Made by a program: the position numbers and the translations under genes
The notes under the pieces: model-generated
What the model saw: only the letters and a program-made list of their open reading frames with translations
What the model was told of the DNA's origin: nothing
The model's database searches: none
Shown here: piece after piece, positions 2,726-29,520 of the stretch
How positions within the stretch are numbered: the first letter of the stretch is position 1
Layout of the letters: each line of letters opens with the position of its first letter
Virus record (IMG/VR): IMGVR_UViG_3300046375_000020
Span: 1 to 35,937 of that record
Reading direction: 5' to 3' (one strand)
Length of the DNA stretch: 35,937 nt
Origin: a virus

Positions 2726-2882
2726 TGCGGAAAAATACGGCCTCAATATAAGCCGATCTAGTAAGCCCCCGATTTCTCGCAAATCGGTCAATGAGTTCCT
2801 TAATTTCGGGCGCAACCGAGAGCATCATTTTGACTTTGCCGGTCCGCGGCCGGCCAACCGGGCGTTTCACGAATTCTTTCAT
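2718..2882 (-). CDS. Ribbon-helix-helix DNA-binding regulator with basic N-terminal arm
   Basis: 54 residues. The N-terminus KRPVGRPRTGK resembles an AT-hook. It is followed by a strand (KVKMMLSV) and two helices (PEIKELIDRFARNR and TRSAYIEAVFF), the arrangement of the Arc/CopG ribbon-helix-helix family, whose dimers bind palindromic operators. It is divergently arranged from the plus-strand mini-gene operon starting at 2949, with only 66 AT-rich bases between. The natural inference is that it controls itself and that operon. ATG at 2882 is the only good start; the preceding bases are AT-rich without a strong Shine-Dalgarno. Confidence 0.7.
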   Translation of the reverse strand: MKEFVKRPVGRPRTGKVKMMLSVAPEIKELIDRFARNRGLTRSAYIEAVFFRNE

Positions 2883-2948
2883 AGTTTGATTTTAGTTATA
2901 CGAAATTACTTGAATTTTCAATTAATTTGCCGATTAATACCCTTGAAA
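2883..2948. promoter_or_regulatory. Divergent control region between RHH gene and plus-strand immunity operon
   Basis: 66 bp, strongly AT-rich compared with the flanks. It contains TTGAATTTTCAA (a 5-bp inverted repeat around two bases) and two ATTAAT blocks around a central TTGCCG. With short genes facing away on both sides, it must hold both promoters and is the obvious operator for the ribbon-helix-helix protein. I could not assign a convincing -35/-10 pair with standard spacing. Confidence 0.45.
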
Positions 2949-3179
2949 ATGCATTGCGATTTAAACCAATTATTGCGTTTATTGCGCCTTCTCTCAGACG
3001 AGGAATTGATCCGGCTCGGACGCCGGGCCGAACTCGTCGGCGATTCTGAAGTTGCCTTGATTTGTGCTTCGGAACAAAAAATCGAAACATTAAAAGAAAC
3101 GGAAAATGATCATTCTTACCCTATTCCTACTCTTAATTGGCCCGGCTTTTGGCGGATTTCTGGTCTGGCGGATGTATAA
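2949..3179 (+). CDS. Hypothetical helical protein, first gene of plus-strand mini-operon
   Basis: 76 residues from ATG 2949. The N-terminal half is helical and leucine/arginine-rich (LLRLLRLLSDEELIRLGRRA). The last 25 residues overlap the next small gene in another frame and look less natural (PIPTLNWPGFW). No family recognised. It opens a run of genes that are each joined by overlaps, in the opposite direction to the flanking terminase and portal genes. Confidence 0.5.
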   Translation: MHCDLNQLLRLLRLLSDEELIRLGRRAELVGDSEVALICASEQKIETLKETENDHSYPIPTLNWPGFWRISGLADV

Positions 3180-3382: not shown

Positions 3383-3696
3383 TCTTATTCCTAATTCTTT
3401 TCGGGATTTTTGTCTATTTCGTGCCATCCATTGCTGCTTTAAGCCGGCGCCACAAAAATAGTAGCGCAATCGTTATCTTAAATCTTCTTTTAGGCTGGAC
3501 GTTTTTAGGTTGGGTAATCGCTTTTGTCTGGGCCTATACCAGTAATCTGGAAGAATCCCAACCGCCGATGCCTGAAAAAATCGATCCCTCATTGCAATGG
3601 GATCGATCAGCAATTTACGAAAATGGCCAGCTCAAAAATAATCGGGCCGAAAACAAGAGTTTCCTCGATAAACTCAAAAACCTGGATCTGAAATGA
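3379..3696 (+). CDS. Superinfection immunity membrane protein (T4 Imm-like)
   Basis: 105 residues with two membrane helices, about 2-22 and 30-54, then an acidic and basic cytoplasmic tail. The core IAALSRRHKNSSAIVILNLL followed by GWTFLGWVIAFVWA matches the two-helix superinfection-immunity family, in which a charged RxHKN loop and a GWTFxGWV helix are conserved. Members sit in the inner membrane and block DNA entry of related phages. ATG at 3379 is coupled to the previous gene by an ATGA overlap and begins just before the first helix, so it is preferred to starts further upstream. Expression from its own operon, away from late genes, fits a lysogeny function. Confidence 0.8.
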   Translation: MILFLILFGIFVYFVPSIAALSRRHKNSSAIVILNLLLGWTFLGWVIAFVWAYTSNLEESQPPMPEKIDPSLQWDRSAIYENGQLKNNRAENKSFLDKLKNLDLK

Positions 3697-3896
3697 GTGA
3701 TCGATACAATTTTTTGACCGTCATCCTGGAGAAAGATATCAAGGATGAGGATGCCGAACCCTTAATCCAAGCGATCAAATGTTTGCGAGGCGTTTTGAAT
3801 GTTACGCCTAACGTATCGGATCCGACCGCATTGCTTGCCGAACAACGAGCAAAAGCCGAACTCAGCGCTAAGCTTTGGAAAGTTCTTTATCCTTAA
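3693..3896 (+). CDS. Conserved small phage protein of unknown function
   Basis: 67 residues, MSDRYNFLTVILEKDIKDED then an alpha/beta pattern (LIQAIKCLRGVLNVTP) and a C-terminal amphipathic helix ending LWKVLYP. The pattern of strand, helix, strand resembles a short protein I have seen in many siphophage genomes without a function. Its ATG overlaps the immunity gene stop, and its stop overlaps the convergent TerL stop (shared TTAA at 3893-3896). Confidence 0.65.
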   Translation: MSDRYNFLTVILEKDIKDEDAEPLIQAIKCLRGVLNVTPNVSDPTALLAEQRAKAELSAKLWKVLYP

Positions 3897-12887: not shown

Positions 12888-13649
12888 TTAATAAAATTGG
12901 ATGCCGGGTTTAATTGCTTCTACGGGTTCGAGAACCGGCCCGGGAACGCTAGGCCCGCTCGAGGCCTGCGCCGGCAAATCGGGTAGCGGCCTTCTCATGG
13001 CGCCCATCGCTTCGGCAACGCGCCAGGTGATCTCGATATCATTTTCCAGATAGGCCCGAGCTGCTTCCGGTTTATAGCGCAAAATCTCGCCGAAATCGGC
13101 GCCATCAGCCGATTTGGTCCCAACACCAAAAAATTGTGCAAGCTCATCCAAGGAAACCTCGAATTGATTGGAATACTCTGAACCGGTCCACAGCTGCAAA
13201 AGATCGGTGAAAAAGCTGGTTAGATAACGGCCTCGCACAATGCCGTATGGGATTCGGATTCGGTGAAACCAGGCCCGCCGGATCAAAAACGGAAGATCGA
13301 AATTGGCAATATTAAACCCGATCCAATGGCCGCCTTTATCAACCATCATTTCAAAGAAGGTCATGAAATGGTTAATAATATCCGTTTCCTCGCCGGCAAT
13401 GATTTCGACGGGTCCGGTCTCGCCCTTGATACCTAACATCGCGATCCGACTGGTCAGAGCCGATAACGCAGCCCTGCGCATGAACCGGTTAAATTGCTCG
13501 AGCCTGGCCTTCTCGATTTTGGCATTGATCTTATCCTGATCAACCATGTTACCGGTTTTAATCTCTTCGGGATTAAAGGCCGGCATCACGGCTTGCAACT
13601 GATCAGTCGGCAAAGGAACCGTCTCGATATCGAAAACTAGATTTCGCAT
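12888..13649 (-). CDS. 3'-5' exonuclease, DEDDy (PolB-like exonuclease domain)
   Basis: 253 residues. Catalytic motifs are visible: FDIET (Asp-7, Glu-9), GFNIANFDLPFL (Asp-118) and YLEND (Tyr-200, Asp-204), the DEDDy set of RNase H-like proofreading exonucleases. The family of stand-alone PolB-related exonucleases is common in phage replication and recombination blocks. The last 35 residues are Pro-rich and unstructured. It is preceded by a pentamer array (13662-13711) in the short spacer. Confidence 0.85.
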   Translation of the reverse strand: MRNLVFDIETVPLPTDQLQAVMPAFNPEEIKTGNMVDQDKINAKIEKARLEQFNRFMRRAALSALTSRIAMLGIKGETGPVEIIAGEETDIINHFMTFFEMMVDKGGHWIGFNIANFDLPFLIRRAWFHRIRIPYGIVRGRYLTSFFTDLLQLWTGSEYSNQFEVSLDELAQFFGVGTKSADGADFGEILRYKPEAARAYLENDIEITWRVAEAMGAMRRPLPDLPAQASSGPSVPGPVLEPVEAIKPGIQFY

Positions 13650-13661
13650 AAAAATAAATAA

Positions 13662-13711
13662 GCTGTGCTTCGCTATGCTTCGCTAAGCAACGCTAAAGCT
13701 TTGCGTTGCTA
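13662..13711. repeat. Degenerate pentanucleotide array A (AGCNN on minus strand)
   Basis: The plus strand reads as consecutive GCTNN units: GCTGT GCTTC GCTAT GCTTC GCTAA, then slightly decayed copies. It fills nearly the whole spacer between the 159-residue gene and the exonuclease gene. Period is five with three fixed bases. It is not a simple microsatellite because the other two positions vary freely. Confidence 0.75.
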
Positions 13712-14188
13712 TGATTCTATAAGATCCAAATCTTTTGGTTTGCGTTTCTTTTTAAGCATTTCATCAATTTCGGTTGCTCGCCGCATCGCGTTGAGTTTCA
13801 TTGATGCTTCCCGGACCATATTTTCATGGCGCCGCTTTTCCAGTTCCGAGAACCCCTCGAGAGAGGTATTAACTAAAAGGGTTAATTTTCCATCTAAATC
13901 GCGCTCAGCTCTTTCAATAGCTAATTTCACCACCCATTGATTGTCTCGCGGATGCCAAACCTCGAAGGCTCCGGTTTTTGCGAATCCTTCGCCGCTTAAA
14001 TAAATACCATGACTGTATAGAGCATGGCGAATATCACTGATCAAATACCAAAATGTCTGTGAATTACGACTAATCCCTAATAGTTCCTCAAAGATTTCAG
14101 CTTTTAATAAGGTGCCAGGTTCAAGTGGTTTGCTAACTAAATTAGTAATAGCGCGTTCGATTCTGATTTCTTTATTATTTGGTTCCAC
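13709..14188 (-). CDS. Hypothetical protein of the recombination block
   Basis: 159 residues, GTG start at 14188. N-terminal helical part (RIERAITNLVSKPLEPGTLL) then KAEIFEELLGISRNSQTFWY and a central DIRHALYSHGIYLSGEGFAK that looks like a winged-helix module, followed by a long basic helix ending KKKRKPKDLD. A DNA-binding role is likely from charge and pattern. It is flanked on both sides by pentamer arrays; its stop lies at the edge of array A. AT-rich compared with neighbours. Confidence 0.6.
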   Translation of the reverse strand: MEPNNKEIRIERAITNLVSKPLEPGTLLKAEIFEELLGISRNSQTFWYLISDIRHALYSHGIYLSGEGFAKTGAFEVWHPRDNQWVVKLAIERAERDLDGKLTLLVNTSLEGFSELEKRRHENMVREASMKLNAMRRATEIDEMLKKKRKPKDLDLIES

Positions 14189-14211
14189 TTGCTTTAGTTT
14201 GATTGTTTAAA

Positions 14212-14225
14212 AGGTTTGGTTTGCT
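14212..14225. repeat. 14-bp direct repeat AGGTTTGGTTTGCT, copy 1
   Basis: Identical to 15031-15044. Each copy caps the downstream end (minus-strand sense) of a pentamer array just before the next gene. It may be the residue of duplicated leader DNA and supports a common origin of arrays B and C. Confidence 0.7.
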
Positions 14226-14398
14226 TAGGCTCGGCTAAGTTCCGCTAGGCTGTGCTCCGCTTCATTTAAAGCTTGGCCACGCTCAGTTACGCTAGGCTAT
14301 GGAAATTTTCATTCTTCCCCGGTTGTTTGCTGCGCTTTGCTTGGCTATGCTACGCTACGCAATACTGTGCTGTGCTTTGCTGCGCCTCGCCGGGCTAT
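14223..14398. repeat. Degenerate pentanucleotide array B
   Basis: Two blocks, 14223-14300 and 14328-14398, separated by about 27 bp of unrelated sequence. The plus strand repeatedly shows GCT every five bases (TCGGCT, CCGCTAGGCT, GTGCTCCGCT, then GCTGCGCTTTGCTTGGCTATGC broken into pentamers). It occupies the spacer of about 215 bp between the 202- and 159-residue genes. No coding frame of note is present. Confidence 0.75.
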
Positions 14399-14404
14399 GT
14401 AAAT

Positions 14405-15013
14405 TCACTTAATAACTTCTGCAGAAAACAATCCATGCCGCGGACGCCAGGCTCCGATCCCCACCAATCGGCCGGCTGCGGTCCAATAATCCATTAAGCG
14501 TTCCTTAGTGATCCCGGAATATTCACAGAGAAATTCAAGTGACCAATTCTCAAAGATCGGCCTGGCCACTAAAATGCTCGTTTTGGAGCCGGGAATTTTT
14601 CCCATTCGCAAACTGACGAAACGTTTATCGAGATAAAGTTCCTCGAGGGTTCGCGGACCGTCATAGATGATTTTCGCGGCGCCATTATCAATCTCTTTGC
14701 CGATAAAGCCTTTGATCAACATTTGGCTTTTAACCAGATTCGATTCCTTATATTTAGCAGCCCCATTTTCGCAGCATTTGAGCAGATTATCGACGGGCAT
14801 ATACATGCCGATTTCTTCATCATAATATGCGGAAGATTGAAATTGGAGCCGGGCCAAAAGTTCGTGATCTTCATCAGTCTTTTTTCGTTTCTGGCTGATC
14901 GTTTTGATTTGGCGGGCTTGCGGATCGAACGGGTTCGCACCCTCACCGCGGCAAAGTAACAATGGCCGCGTGCCGGTTATTCGGATTTTGGTTTGATCTA
15001 GGATTGGTGTCAT
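14405..15013 (-). CDS. Conserved phage recombination-module protein, possibly RAMP-like
   Basis: 202 residues. Opening IRITGTRPLLLCRGEGANPF, then basic SQKRKKTDEDHELLARLQFQ and SAYYDEEIGMYMPVDNLLKC, a middle IYDGPRTLEELY, and closing AGRLVGIGAWRPRHGLFSAE. I recognise this as a widespread hypothetical phage protein encoded next to Sak4-like ATPases. The C-terminal glycine-rich GIGAWRPRHG resembles the G-rich loop of RAMP-type RNA-binding folds; that link is my inference. Start ATG 15013. It lies between pentamer arrays C and B. Confidence 0.7.
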   Translation of the reverse strand: MTPILDQTKIRITGTRPLLLCRGEGANPFDPQARQIKTISQKRKKTDEDHELLARLQFQSSAYYDEEIGMYMPVDNLLKCCENGAAKYKESNLVKSQMLIKGFIGKEIDNGAAKIIYDGPRTLEELYLDKRFVSLRMGKIPGSKTSILVARPIFENWSLEFLCEYSGITKERLMDYWTAAGRLVGIGAWRPRHGLFSAEVIK

Positions 15014-15030
15014 TTTCTTTCTTTCATTTA

Positions 15031-15044
15031 GGTTTGGTTTGCTA
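15031..15044. repeat. 14-bp direct repeat AGGTTTGGTTTGCT, copy 2
   Basis: Identical to 14212-14225. It marks the junction between the leader of the 202-residue gene and pentamer array C. Confidence 0.7.
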
Positions 15045-15264
15045 TGCTGCGCTCTGCTGTCTATGCGGTGCTTGGCTAAGCTAAGCTTCGCTGCGCTCCG
15101 CTTTGCTGCGCTTGGCTCGTGCTAGACTCGGCTAAGTTGAGCTCAACATTGCTCGGCTGCGCTTCGGAAATCTTTTGCGGTTCCGTTGTTCCATCGCTGT
15201 GGTTAGCTAGGCTCTGTTCGGCTTCGCTCCGCTTCGCGCCGTTATGCTCCGCTGAGCTTAGTTT
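15042..15264. repeat. Degenerate pentanucleotide array C, entering the Sak4-like coding region
   Basis: Block 15042-15166 is almost unbroken GCTNN on the plus strand; a second block is at 15205-15264. It covers the spacer after the Sak4-like gene and the last 60 or so codons of that gene, and even supplies its TAG stop. Read on the minus strand it is AGCNN; three units make five codons, giving a five-residue protein repeat. Confidence 0.8.
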
Positions 15265-16059
15265 CGTTTCGGAAGTTTCAGATTGCGATGGGCCGAAATA
15301 AAATTCTTTGACCTTTTCTGCAAACGCTTTCCATTCCAACGGAAGTTCAAAAGGTAAATTGAACCGGTTCTTGGCATCGAAGGCCGGCCGATGCTCGGTA
15401 TAAAGACAACGCTCGCCCTCGCCTATACCTTTGCCGCTATTCTTTGAAAGTTCCCTTACTTTTTCATTAAATGAGGCGAACAAAACTGCGTCAACCGCTT
15501 GCCGAACCGCGCCTGCCGCCAAGGGATTAAGTGCTAATTCATACCGATCATAAGCTGCGGTTAATTTCGGATCGTCAAACCGTTTAATTCTAGTGTTAGC
15601 AATTAAAATGACATGCATCTTTTCCACTAATCCGGTGAGTTCCCTTAATATTCCGCGCCAGATTTCATAGGCTCGGGTATGTCCTTTTCCGTAACCGCCG
15701 AAAACCTGTTCAATTGACCGCGGATTATTGGGATCCTCGGCGCATACTTGGCGCCAAATTAAGAGTTCCAAGTAATCCAATGGATCAATCACTAGGCTTT
15801 TAAATGAATGTTCCTGATTTTTTAACCCTTGAATCAGATTACGGAAATCGTTAAGGGTTTGCGGTCGCGGTAATCTGGCAACTTTTAGTTGTTCACTACC
15901 GGCTTCCATGTCGATAAAAACGGGGTCGGGTGCTTCGCTGCTCCATTGCGTTTTTCCCACTCCGTTCGGACCGTAAATAAGGCAAAAGATATGGCGGATA
16001 ACTATACCGTAACTAATCCCGCCCAGGAACCCGCCTAAATCCTCGCGTTTATCACTCAT
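15076..16059 (-). CDS. Sak4-like RecA-fold ATPase (recombination mediator)
   Basis: 327 residues. Walker A GPNGVGKT (30-37), Walker B SLVIDPLD (88-95), and a sensor-like VILIANTRIKRFDD. This matches the AAA_24/Sak4 group, single-strand annealing or RecA-like ATPases found with SSB-like partners and exonucleases. The conserved body ends at about residue 265. The remaining 60 residues are a low-complexity repeat with units SSAEH, NGAKR, SEAEQ, SLANH, SEAQP, SGAQR, encoded by the pentanucleotide array. Such a tail is unusual in the family. The start overlaps the VRR-NUC gene by ATGA. Confidence 0.8.
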   Translation of the reverse strand: MSDKREDLGGFLGGISYGIVIRHIFCLIYGPNGVGKTQWSSEAPDPVFIDMEAGSEQLKVARLPRPQTLNDFRNLIQGLKNQEHSFKSLVIDPLDYLELLIWRQVCAEDPNNPRSIEQVFGGYGKGHTRAYEIWRGILRELTGLVEKMHVILIANTRIKRFDDPKLTAAYDRYELALNPLAAGAVRQAVDAVLFASFNEKVRELSKNSGKGIGEGERCLYTEHRPAFDAKNRFNLPFELPLEWKAFAEKVKEFYFGPSQSETSETKLSSAEHNGAKRSEAEQSLANHSDGTTEPQKISEAQPSNVELNLAESSTSQAQQSGAQRSLA

Positions 16060-27627: not shown

Positions 27628-28355
27628 GGGTGAGAGGAAACATCATTCGGTTCGTAAAACCCGAGGCTGCCGTGATTATAGGCCAGTTGCCAGGTTTCAT
27701 TACATTTATAGACGCCCGGCGTATTGACGACATCAGGTGTTCCCTGGGTCGTCTTTTTCGATGGGGTTTGCTGTTGGCAAATAAACCTGGTCAGCATCAA
27801 AAGCGGTTTAATCGGGGTCGGAATAATCGGGAACCCTTGGTAATTGTAGCCCGGCTGCAGCGGCGCATTGGTGATATTGGTAAAAACGTCCATCACGAAC
27901 ACAAAACCGCTGGCTAAACTCTGGAAATTGGCCCCGGTTTCCAATTGATAACTGGTATAGGAAAAACTTACCGACCAGGTTGAATATTGAGCGTCGAAAG
28001 TAACAATCGCGACTGTGCCCTTCCATTGTGCCGGCCCGGACCAGGAAAAGGATTGGGCCAAGAGTTCGCCTTGCATCAATAAATCGGTCCAGTTCTGTTG
28101 TTGCAAGATTGTCCCGATATAGACGATCGAAACTTCGATAAGGCCGCCTCCGCGATCTTCCCGGCTGATCGATTGCGCAAACATGCTCGGGAATTGAGGG
28201 TGCGGACTGCCCCTCCGCGGCGCCCAGTTCGCGTAATCGACTTCCATGCCCTGGTAAACGCAGGTCATTGAAGTGAATTGTCCGGCTGAACTGACTATGC
28301 GCCGGCTCGGGATCTCCCAGAATGAGCCGAAAAGATTGGTTGCAATCGAAACCAT
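27624..28355 (-). CDS. Distal tail / minor tail protein
   Basis: 243 residues, beta-rich throughout (GGGLIEVSIVYIGTILQQQN, WKGTVAIVTFDAQYSTWSVS). There is a C-terminal FICQQQTPSKKTTQGTPD. It follows the tape measure immediately, the position of the distal tail protein or minor tail protein in siphoviruses. I see no enzyme motif. Identity inferred from gene order. Confidence 0.6.
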   Translation of the reverse strand: MVSIATNLFGSFWEIPSRRIVSSAGQFTSMTCVYQGMEVDYANWAPRRGSPHPQFPSMFAQSISREDRGGGLIEVSIVYIGTILQQQNWTDLLMQGELLAQSFSWSGPAQWKGTVAIVTFDAQYSTWSVSFSYTSYQLETGANFQSLASGFVFVMDVFTNITNAPLQPGYNYQGFPIIPTPIKPLLMLTRFICQQQTPSKKTTQGTPDVVNTPGVYKCNETWQLAYNHGSLGFYEPNDVSSHP

Positions 28356-28365
28356 AAAAAGGGTT

Positions 28366-29520
28366 TTAGCGCGGATTAACCGCCCGGTGCAGAGCCTCAG
28401 CCGCTTCCTTATGTTCAGCAGCCGCTTCCTTTAAGAATCGAATGGGATCCTGGAAAAGCGTGAAAATATTATTTTCGACACTTTCCAAATAATCGTGAAT
28501 TGGTTTCAAAGGTTGCCCGAATGGATGCGAAGGATTTAGAAGAGTGCCTTGATCCCTTCCAAAGAAAAAATGCAATGCTTTTACAGCGACCGGAACCACA
28601 ACCTTTAATTCTTCTCCGAGTTCATGAAATGATTTTATGATATCGGGCATCTCAGTTTTTAGTCCCCGCAAAGCTTCATTAACAACCGGCAAAAGATCAG
28701 TCCCGAGTTCGCGCCAAAGTTTATTAAATTCCTCGGTTATCCCCATGAATTGGCCTCGGGTCGATGTTTCGGCGCCGAATCTGGCAGGTGCTTGCAACCC
28801 CCCGGGTGCAATAGCCGGCAAAACAGTTTTGAAAAGCCAATCGGCGCCTCCGGCCGCTTTCACCCTGGCCGCTAAACCTTCCTCCGGTGTTGCGCCGGGT
28901 GCCGCGGCGGGACCGCCAGCCGGCAACATTTGACGAACCCTTGCCGCTAAAGCCGGCATTTCCCGGAACATCCTCGGAGGAACTTCGCCTTCACTTCGCA
29001 TTTCAACAAATTTTTCGCCGAGCTCATCCACACCGACCCCGAGCGATTTGGCCGCGTTTTGAATATCGATCAGGTTTTTAAATGCCGTGTCCGGGATTAG
29101 GCCGGTTCGCACTAGCCCGGCAAAAATGGCCATATTTTCTTCAAAGCCGCCCATGACACCGGAAATGGACTGGATTTTTTCGGCCCATGCTTCGGCCTGT
29201 CCCGCAAATGCGGTCCCGAGTGCGGCTCGCAATTTTCCAATTTGCGCCCCAAAATCCAGGGCCGCGGTGACGGCATCTTTGAACCCCTTGACCAACACAT
29301 TGCTAAATTCAACCGCAGCACCGGCCAGGCCCGCGGCACCTAACAATTTAGCGATTCCACCGAGCCCAGTTTGGCTGACAACATTTTGCGAAGCCGCTTT
29401 AATCGCATCCAAACTTTTTTCGACGTTCTCTTTGAAAGCATTAGCTTCCGCGCTCGATTCCTTGAACTTCGCTTTCAGGTCCGAATCGTCGCCTTTGATT
29501 GCTACCTTGATGTCGGCCAT
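28366..29520 (-). CDS. Tape measure protein (short)
   Basis: 384 residues, helical and alanine-rich, beginning MADIKVAIKGDDSDLKAKFK as tape measures often do. A hydrophobic stretch (LGGIAKLLGAAGLAGAAVEF) occurs at about 52-75. It follows the chaperone frameshift gene directly. The length is small, implying a tail of roughly 60 nm by the usual proportionality of tape length to tail length. The C-terminal part carries basic and acidic helices typical of the end inserted in the tail tip. Confidence 0.75.
   Translation of the reverse strand: MADIKVAIKGDDSDLKAKFKESSAEANAFKENVEKSLDAIKAASQNVVSQTGLGGIAKLLGAAGLAGAAVEFSNVLVKGFKDAVTAALDFGAQIGKLRAALGTAFAGQAEAWAEKIQSISGVMGGFEENMAIFAGLVRTGLIPDTAFKNLIDIQNAAKSLGVGVDELGEKFVEMRSEGEVPPRMFREMPALAARVRQMLPAGGPAAAPGATPEEGLAARVKAAGGADWLFKTVLPAIAPGGLQAPARFGAETSTRGQFMGITEEFNKLWRELGTDLLPVVNEALRGLKTEMPDIIKSFHELGEELKVVVPVAVKALHFFFGRDQGTLLNPSHPFGQPLKPIHDYLESVENNIFTLFQDPIRFLKEAAAEHKEAAEALHRAVNPR

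Follow-up and report, generated by a model that had tools for sequence, protein, structure and literature searches.

Pentamer arrays at three gene junctions of a temperate phage

The window, by which we mean the entire stretch of DNA analyzed (35,937 nt; IMG/VR virus record IMGVR_UViG_3300046375_000020, positions 1-35,937), encodes an integrase, an excisionase-like protein, a terminase, and a head protein, identifying the host of the arrays described here as a temperate phage. The genes and arrays of the locus are as follows, with the basis of each assignment at the end of its line.

12888..13649, minus strand: 3′-5′ exonuclease gene (exo; DNA_pol_B_exo2, phrog_25228), neighbor and near-target; family matches
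13620..13643, minus strand: near-match of guide A10 in the first exonuclease codons (NLVFDIET); wobble phase, 15/16 bases
13660..13710, minus strand: array A, 10 units (guide A10), 5′ of the exonuclease gene; NN match to the exo start
13709..14188, minus strand: vap1 homologue, 159 aa, predicted accessory protein; iterative profile search
14212..14298, minus strand: array B, 6 + 7 units plus the shared 3′ sequence AGCAAACCAAACCT; unit parsing
14327..14396, minus strand: array B, guide B14, 14 units, between vipr and vap1; unit parsing
14405..15013, minus strand: vipr, 202-aa Vipr/RAMP homologue, phrog_4652; SUSP1 homology, PDB 36pp, predicted fold
15030..15058, minus strand: end of array C, 4 units plus the shared 3′ sequence AGCAAACCAAACCT, just before vipr; unit parsing
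15068..15117, minus strand: array C, guide C10, 10 perfect AGC/NN units; unit parsing and chain count
15119..15163, minus strand: array C, 9 AGC/NN units; unit parsing
15194..15268, minus strand: array C, guide C15, 15 units, overlapping the 3′ end of the sak4-like ORF; NN match to sak4
15076..16059, minus strand: sak4-like gene (AAA_24, phrog_124), its last ~64 codons being array C; family matches
15394..15429, minus strand: near-match (protospacer-like) of C15 within sak4; skipped base in the wobble position, score 279

The 36-kb window contains 14 copies of a four-unit GCTNN chain, GCTNNGCTNNGCTNNGCT, all on one strand and within 13662-15117, and 100 dinucleotide shuffles of the window contain none. 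GCT autocorrelation across the window reaches 48 at lag 5 and stays between 5 and 17 at lags not divisible by five. No lag-5 autocorrelation was seen for plus-strand AGC in the window, and outside this locus neither strand of the whole window holds a block with at least five AGC in eight units. The period-5 AGC pattern with free NN pairs that a sequence-only reading had described on the minus strand is thus enriched over shuffles and confined to one locus, rather than evenly spread over the genome. The same reading placed the arrays in the spacers after genes; the AGC strand is the coding strand, and the arrays are better described by the next gene on the mRNA, with A lying 5′ of exo, B 5′ of vap1, and C 5′ of vipr, in each case on the sense strand.

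Tolerant hand parsing yields about 75 units, with A at the first position in 67/75, G at the second in 67/75, C at the third in 72/75, and near-random bases at positions 4 and 5. The triplet is exactly AGC in 57/75 units, and the exceptions are mostly one-step changes (AAC, GGC, AGT, TGC, CGC); given this partial degeneracy, some guides may be decaying. Across 2089 units from many phages, NN entropy is 3.85 of 4 bits. The 14-bp sequence noticed earlier at the inner ends of arrays B and C, AGGTTTGGTTTGCT, is indeed identical at 14212 and 15030, the gene-proximal ends of the two arrays.

Array C enters the 3′ end of the sak4-like ORF in frame, as had been pointed out, but the translated repeat is an incidental by-product of overlap with an ORF end; in a related phage (contig L079) one array runs into the 3′ end of another gene, of 176 aa. 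Array C RNA is predicted to fold no better than shuffles (z -0.93), which argues against the previously suggested structural role for the array RNA itself. Rfam gave no match in the window or in nine loci, and the region had no DNA match in the phage collection.

Vipr and Vap1 homologues between the arrays

The 202-aa protein encoded between arrays B and C aligns over its full length with ALH47069.1 of Escherichia phage SUSP1 (BLASTP, 35% identity, E 2e-38), the gene for which (28474-29061) lies among GGTNN arrays. Its best solved-structure match is PDB 36pp_D, "SUSP1 Vipr protein," with E 1.5e-29 from the single sequence and 3.1e-62 by profile, compared to E 0.05 for the next best, Csm5. An AlphaFold (AF2) model of the protein (pLDDT 91.9) has Csm3/Cas7-type RAMPs as its top structural matches (Z 10-11), and the protein has a conserved G-rich C-terminal motif. 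Judged by homology and predicted fold, the 202-aa gene is vipr. No direct BLAST match links the 159-aa protein to SUSP1 vap1. Iterative profiles do reach SUSP1 28031-28471, as well as, at about 30 loci, the gene that follows vipr, and by this profile evidence the 159-residue gene is a Vap1 homologue.

VIPR, described in a bioRxiv preprint of April 2026 (PMC13142463), pairs a phage-borne RAMP protein, Vipr, which is small and has an RRM core, a G-loop, and a thumb, with pentamer guide RNAs of the form GGY/NN; the preprint defines the triplet as GGY "or a related consensus." The guides comprise 9-16 repeats with a conserved structured 3′ tail, are ~100-nt RNAs bound by Vipr, and are read on double-stranded DNA with one base skipped per unit (PMC13142463). 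The SUSP1 vipr gene is reported to be flanked by pentamer arrays, matching the GGTNN arrays that we see beside it, and transcription block was shown for SUSP1 (PMC13142463).

The arrays in the window very probably encode the guide RNAs (vrRNAs) of VIPR, a CRISPR-like silencing system, here borne by a temperate phage. The sequence-only reading knew of no described element of this form, which the VIPR vrRNAs do have (PMC13142463). It also proposed a functional tie between the arrays and a locally encoded protein, for which homology points to the 202-residue one; its suggestion of a binding array for recombination proteins fits poorly with arrays that have the form and gene context of VIPR guide RNAs.

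Varied AGC arrays accompany Vipr across phages

Searching viral contigs for runs of seven GCTNN units recovered both simple repeats and degenerate arrays, which we separated into simple-repeat loci (one or two kinds of NN) and varied-NN loci (six or more kinds). The search in other phages that had been proposed at the outset thus found varied-NN AGC arrays at 49 viral loci. Vipr was present in 40/49 of these within the fetched stretch, rising to 43/49 with whole records, compared to 1/62 of the simple-repeat loci, and AGC lies on the vipr strand in 39/40. The one case of opposite strands is L090 (289-1281, plus strand), where the Vipr-like ORF, at 330 aa, is exceptionally long and its boundaries may be wrong. 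In two contigs with varied-NN AGC arrays, L089 (49-kb record G006) and L238 (39-kb record G009), no Vipr was detected in the whole record; a very divergent Vipr, a fragment, or an element borrowing Vipr in trans are possible explanations.

These counts bear on the simplest alternative, an ordinary expanding pentanucleotide microsatellite tolerated in spacers and gene ends. Many contigs do contain simple GCTNN tandem repeats built of one or two unit types, but the co-occurrence test refutes such an origin for the varied arrays, which accompany a Vipr gene and its strand. Further, their NN pairs are near-random and their units are not copies of one another, as the sequence-only reading had also argued against slippage, and the NN strings match genes by a skip code (see below). 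We consider a microsatellite extremely improbable.

We also weighed a DNA or RNA binding array for another protein, be it Sak4 or a TRAP-like ring that recognizes NAGNN within mRNA leaders. TRAP reads (G/U)AGNN repeats, and the arrays are sense-strand sequences immediately 5′ of start codons. However, the gene that accompanies the arrays in unrelated contigs encodes a RAMP rather than TRAP or Sak4, and neither the information content of NN nor the target matches have a place in such a model. We abandoned the TRAP-like leader when the partner turned out to encode a RAMP, and a binding array of either kind appears very unlikely.

Vipr loci collected by protein similarity, with no preset triplet, carry GGC or GGT arrays; as AGC loci were gathered by the AGC pattern and GGY loci by protein, the share of AGC among VIPRs cannot be read from these counts. 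In a phylogeny of 77 Viprs, the AGC and GGY types are intermingled, with eight changes on the best tree and at least four forced by well-supported branches. Both triplets are R-G-Y. Because the published definition allows a related consensus and AGC and GGY interchange on the Vipr tree, we treat AGC as a VIPR variant rather than as grounds for exclusion.

The L079 phage, with a Vipr 83% identical to that of the window, carries arrays at the same junctions. This homologous locus agrees in position and differs in length: its arrays are near-perfect runs of 28-35 units, unlike the degenerate arrays of the window. Other layouts were also seen. An unbroken AGC/NN array of 69 units adjoins vipr in L029 (8675-9019), far above the reported 9-16. 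Four contigs (L016, L040, L019, and L035) have tandem guides of 9-13 AGC/NN units separated by ~60-nt spacers that hold small hairpins (e.g., GGCTACAAAGTAGC), resembling the SUSP1 tail layout. In L177 (~3566-3790, vipr strand), arrays are followed by a repeated tail containing GGGTTCAAGCCCCGGACGC, which resembles a tRNA T-arm; a tRNA-like 3′ tail may serve as a processing signal for these guides.

Guides match genes with a one-nucleotide skip

The NN strings of the 211 guides that we parsed were compared with 2 Mb of fetched DNA, allowing skips of 0-3. The best skip-1 match among all guides was that of C15 to the sak4 gene of the window itself, at 15394-15429 (score 279; 11/12 dinucleotides, 23/24 bases), with the skipped base at the wobble position and no match at other skips. 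None of 1500 unit shuffles in the window reached this score (shuffle maximum 168). Guide A10 agrees at 15/16 bases with the opening codons of the neighboring exonuclease gene, a match whose score is reached by 15/1500 shuffles over the whole window and by 0/100 within 700 nt.

Considering all guides, seven skip-1 matches (one guide counted twice) score at least 150 within 700 nt of their own array, compared to 2/0/0 at skips 0/2/3 and 0.44 expected from shuffles, with shuffle probabilities being rough for long arrays. Matching at the protein level gave the same skip-1 excess (15 vs. 5-7 at score 41), and the skipped base is in wobble phase in 5/5 cases with a clear reading frame. A guide in L019 (2648-2697) matches an adjacent excisionase-like HTH gene (2731-3024) in antisense and in wobble phase; this is a lysogeny-switch type of target, a type reported for other VIPRs.

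Exact scans of viral_contigs returned no targets for C15 (12 units), B14 (10 units), or the L079 terminase-side guide described below. A10 had six exact matches there, which we attribute to chance because none is in an exonuclease. For C10, one exact 20-base skip-1 match sequence was present in two contigs (L246 12059-12087 and L247 111-139), in a small phage gene (HAKGADFFQT) and in wobble phase; this could be about what chance would give. The L247 record itself encodes a Vipr.

Some guides adjoin the phage's own copy of the gene they match

A subset of guides adjoins the phage's own copy of the gene they match, namely sak4 and exo in the window and the terminase gene in L079. The L079 guide scores 253 to TerL of a rival contig, L109 (IFEAVDRCGYAVL), compared to 147 to its own TerL (IFAGLDRCGYNVL), and the two matches fall at the same codons. 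L079 and L109 may come from one site, given their close IMG study numbers. Mismatches in the self-matches resemble conservative differences between homologues (R/K, V/L, C/S).

The main rival reading of these placements is autoregulation, in which C15 and A10 would dampen transcription of their own sak4 and exo through partial matches rather than attack rivals. Consistent with this, the matches of C15 and A10 were found only in the window's own adjacent genes, and several independent guides in other phages match within ~600 nt of their array. However, every self-match has mismatches of the conservative-homologue kind, the L079 guide is a better fit to the rival's allele than to that of its own phage, and published VIPR functions are mainly inter-phage attack (PMC13142463). 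We regard autoregulation as unlikely.

We favor instead a reading in which the guides attack homologous genes in related phages while the phage's own, diverged allele stays beside the guide; L079 and L109 provide one direct rival case. There the rival allele is the better match, so that inheritance would keep the guide together with the allele it targets less. We tentatively suggest from these sequences, as a possibility short of probable, that AGC-type VIPR phages often place guides beside their own diverged allele of a gene attacked in rivals, and that the two may co-travel through recombination as an RNA-guided allele (marker) exclusion. Such placement hints at a way for phages to gain guides while remaining protected from them, a question that bears on VIPR and on how CRISPR arose.

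Proposed mechanism and comparison with known systems

Drawing on the gene homology, fold, vap1, array form and strand, co-occurrence, and skip-1 matches with a wobble skip observed here, we hypothesize that the arrays are transcribed and loaded, with AGC as the fixed scaffold triplet held by Vipr subunits in place of the GGC/GGT of SUSP1 and the free NN pairs as the guide. Vipr would polymerize along the RNA and present each NN pair to double-stranded DNA, skipping one target base per unit; by extension from SUSP1, transcription would be blocked, possibly with the assistance of Vap1, and the action would fall on homologous genes of competing phages.

The AGC consensus, the repeated AGC/GGY switching, and the guides beside the matched gene are new here, with the caveat that AGC may already be one of the "related" consensuses in fig. 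S17 of the preprint (PMC13142463). The one-nucleotide-skip, non-contiguous guide code is supported with a different scaffold triplet and by sequence evidence independent of the discovery preprint, and AGC-type VIPR is spread over many uncultivated phages. As the triplet has switched repeatedly while the Vipr fold was kept, the Vipr-triplet recognition code can be tested with sister Viprs.

The closest known system is the VIPR of SUSP1 (PMC13142463; PDB 36pp). Both are phage-borne, with homologous Vipr (35%) and Vap1 (by profile) and with fixed-triplet/free-NN pentamer arrays flanking vipr on its strand, and in both, targets are read with a 1-nt skip at the codon wobble, here as sequence matches alone. 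They differ in that the window arrays are AGC rather than GGY, overlap ORF ends, and are longer and unbroken in L079 (28-35 units), and in that some guides lie next to the gene they match in their own phage. The guides of the window parse to 9-15 units; the ends of B and C share only the short AAACCAAACCT, and no structured 3′ tail or hairpin was seen at the array ends.

Class 1 CRISPR-Cas systems (Csm3/Cas7 RAMPs) share the RAMP fold, the G-rich C-terminal loop, and an RNA-guided logic. Unlike them, the window has no CRISPR repeats, Cas1/2, or other Cas genes that we could see, and its guide is non-contiguous. We rejected membership in class 1, as the arrays are period-5 rather than repeat-spacer and no cas family matched among the replication-region proteins scanned.

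In the intronless homing, or marker exclusion, of T-even phages, a homing endonuclease cuts the DNA of a co-infecting relative. There, as proposed here, a selfish selector adjoins the resistant allele of the gene attacked in the relative. The selector in our proposal would be an RNA-guided repressor rather than a DNA-cutting enzyme, making the analogy a functional one.
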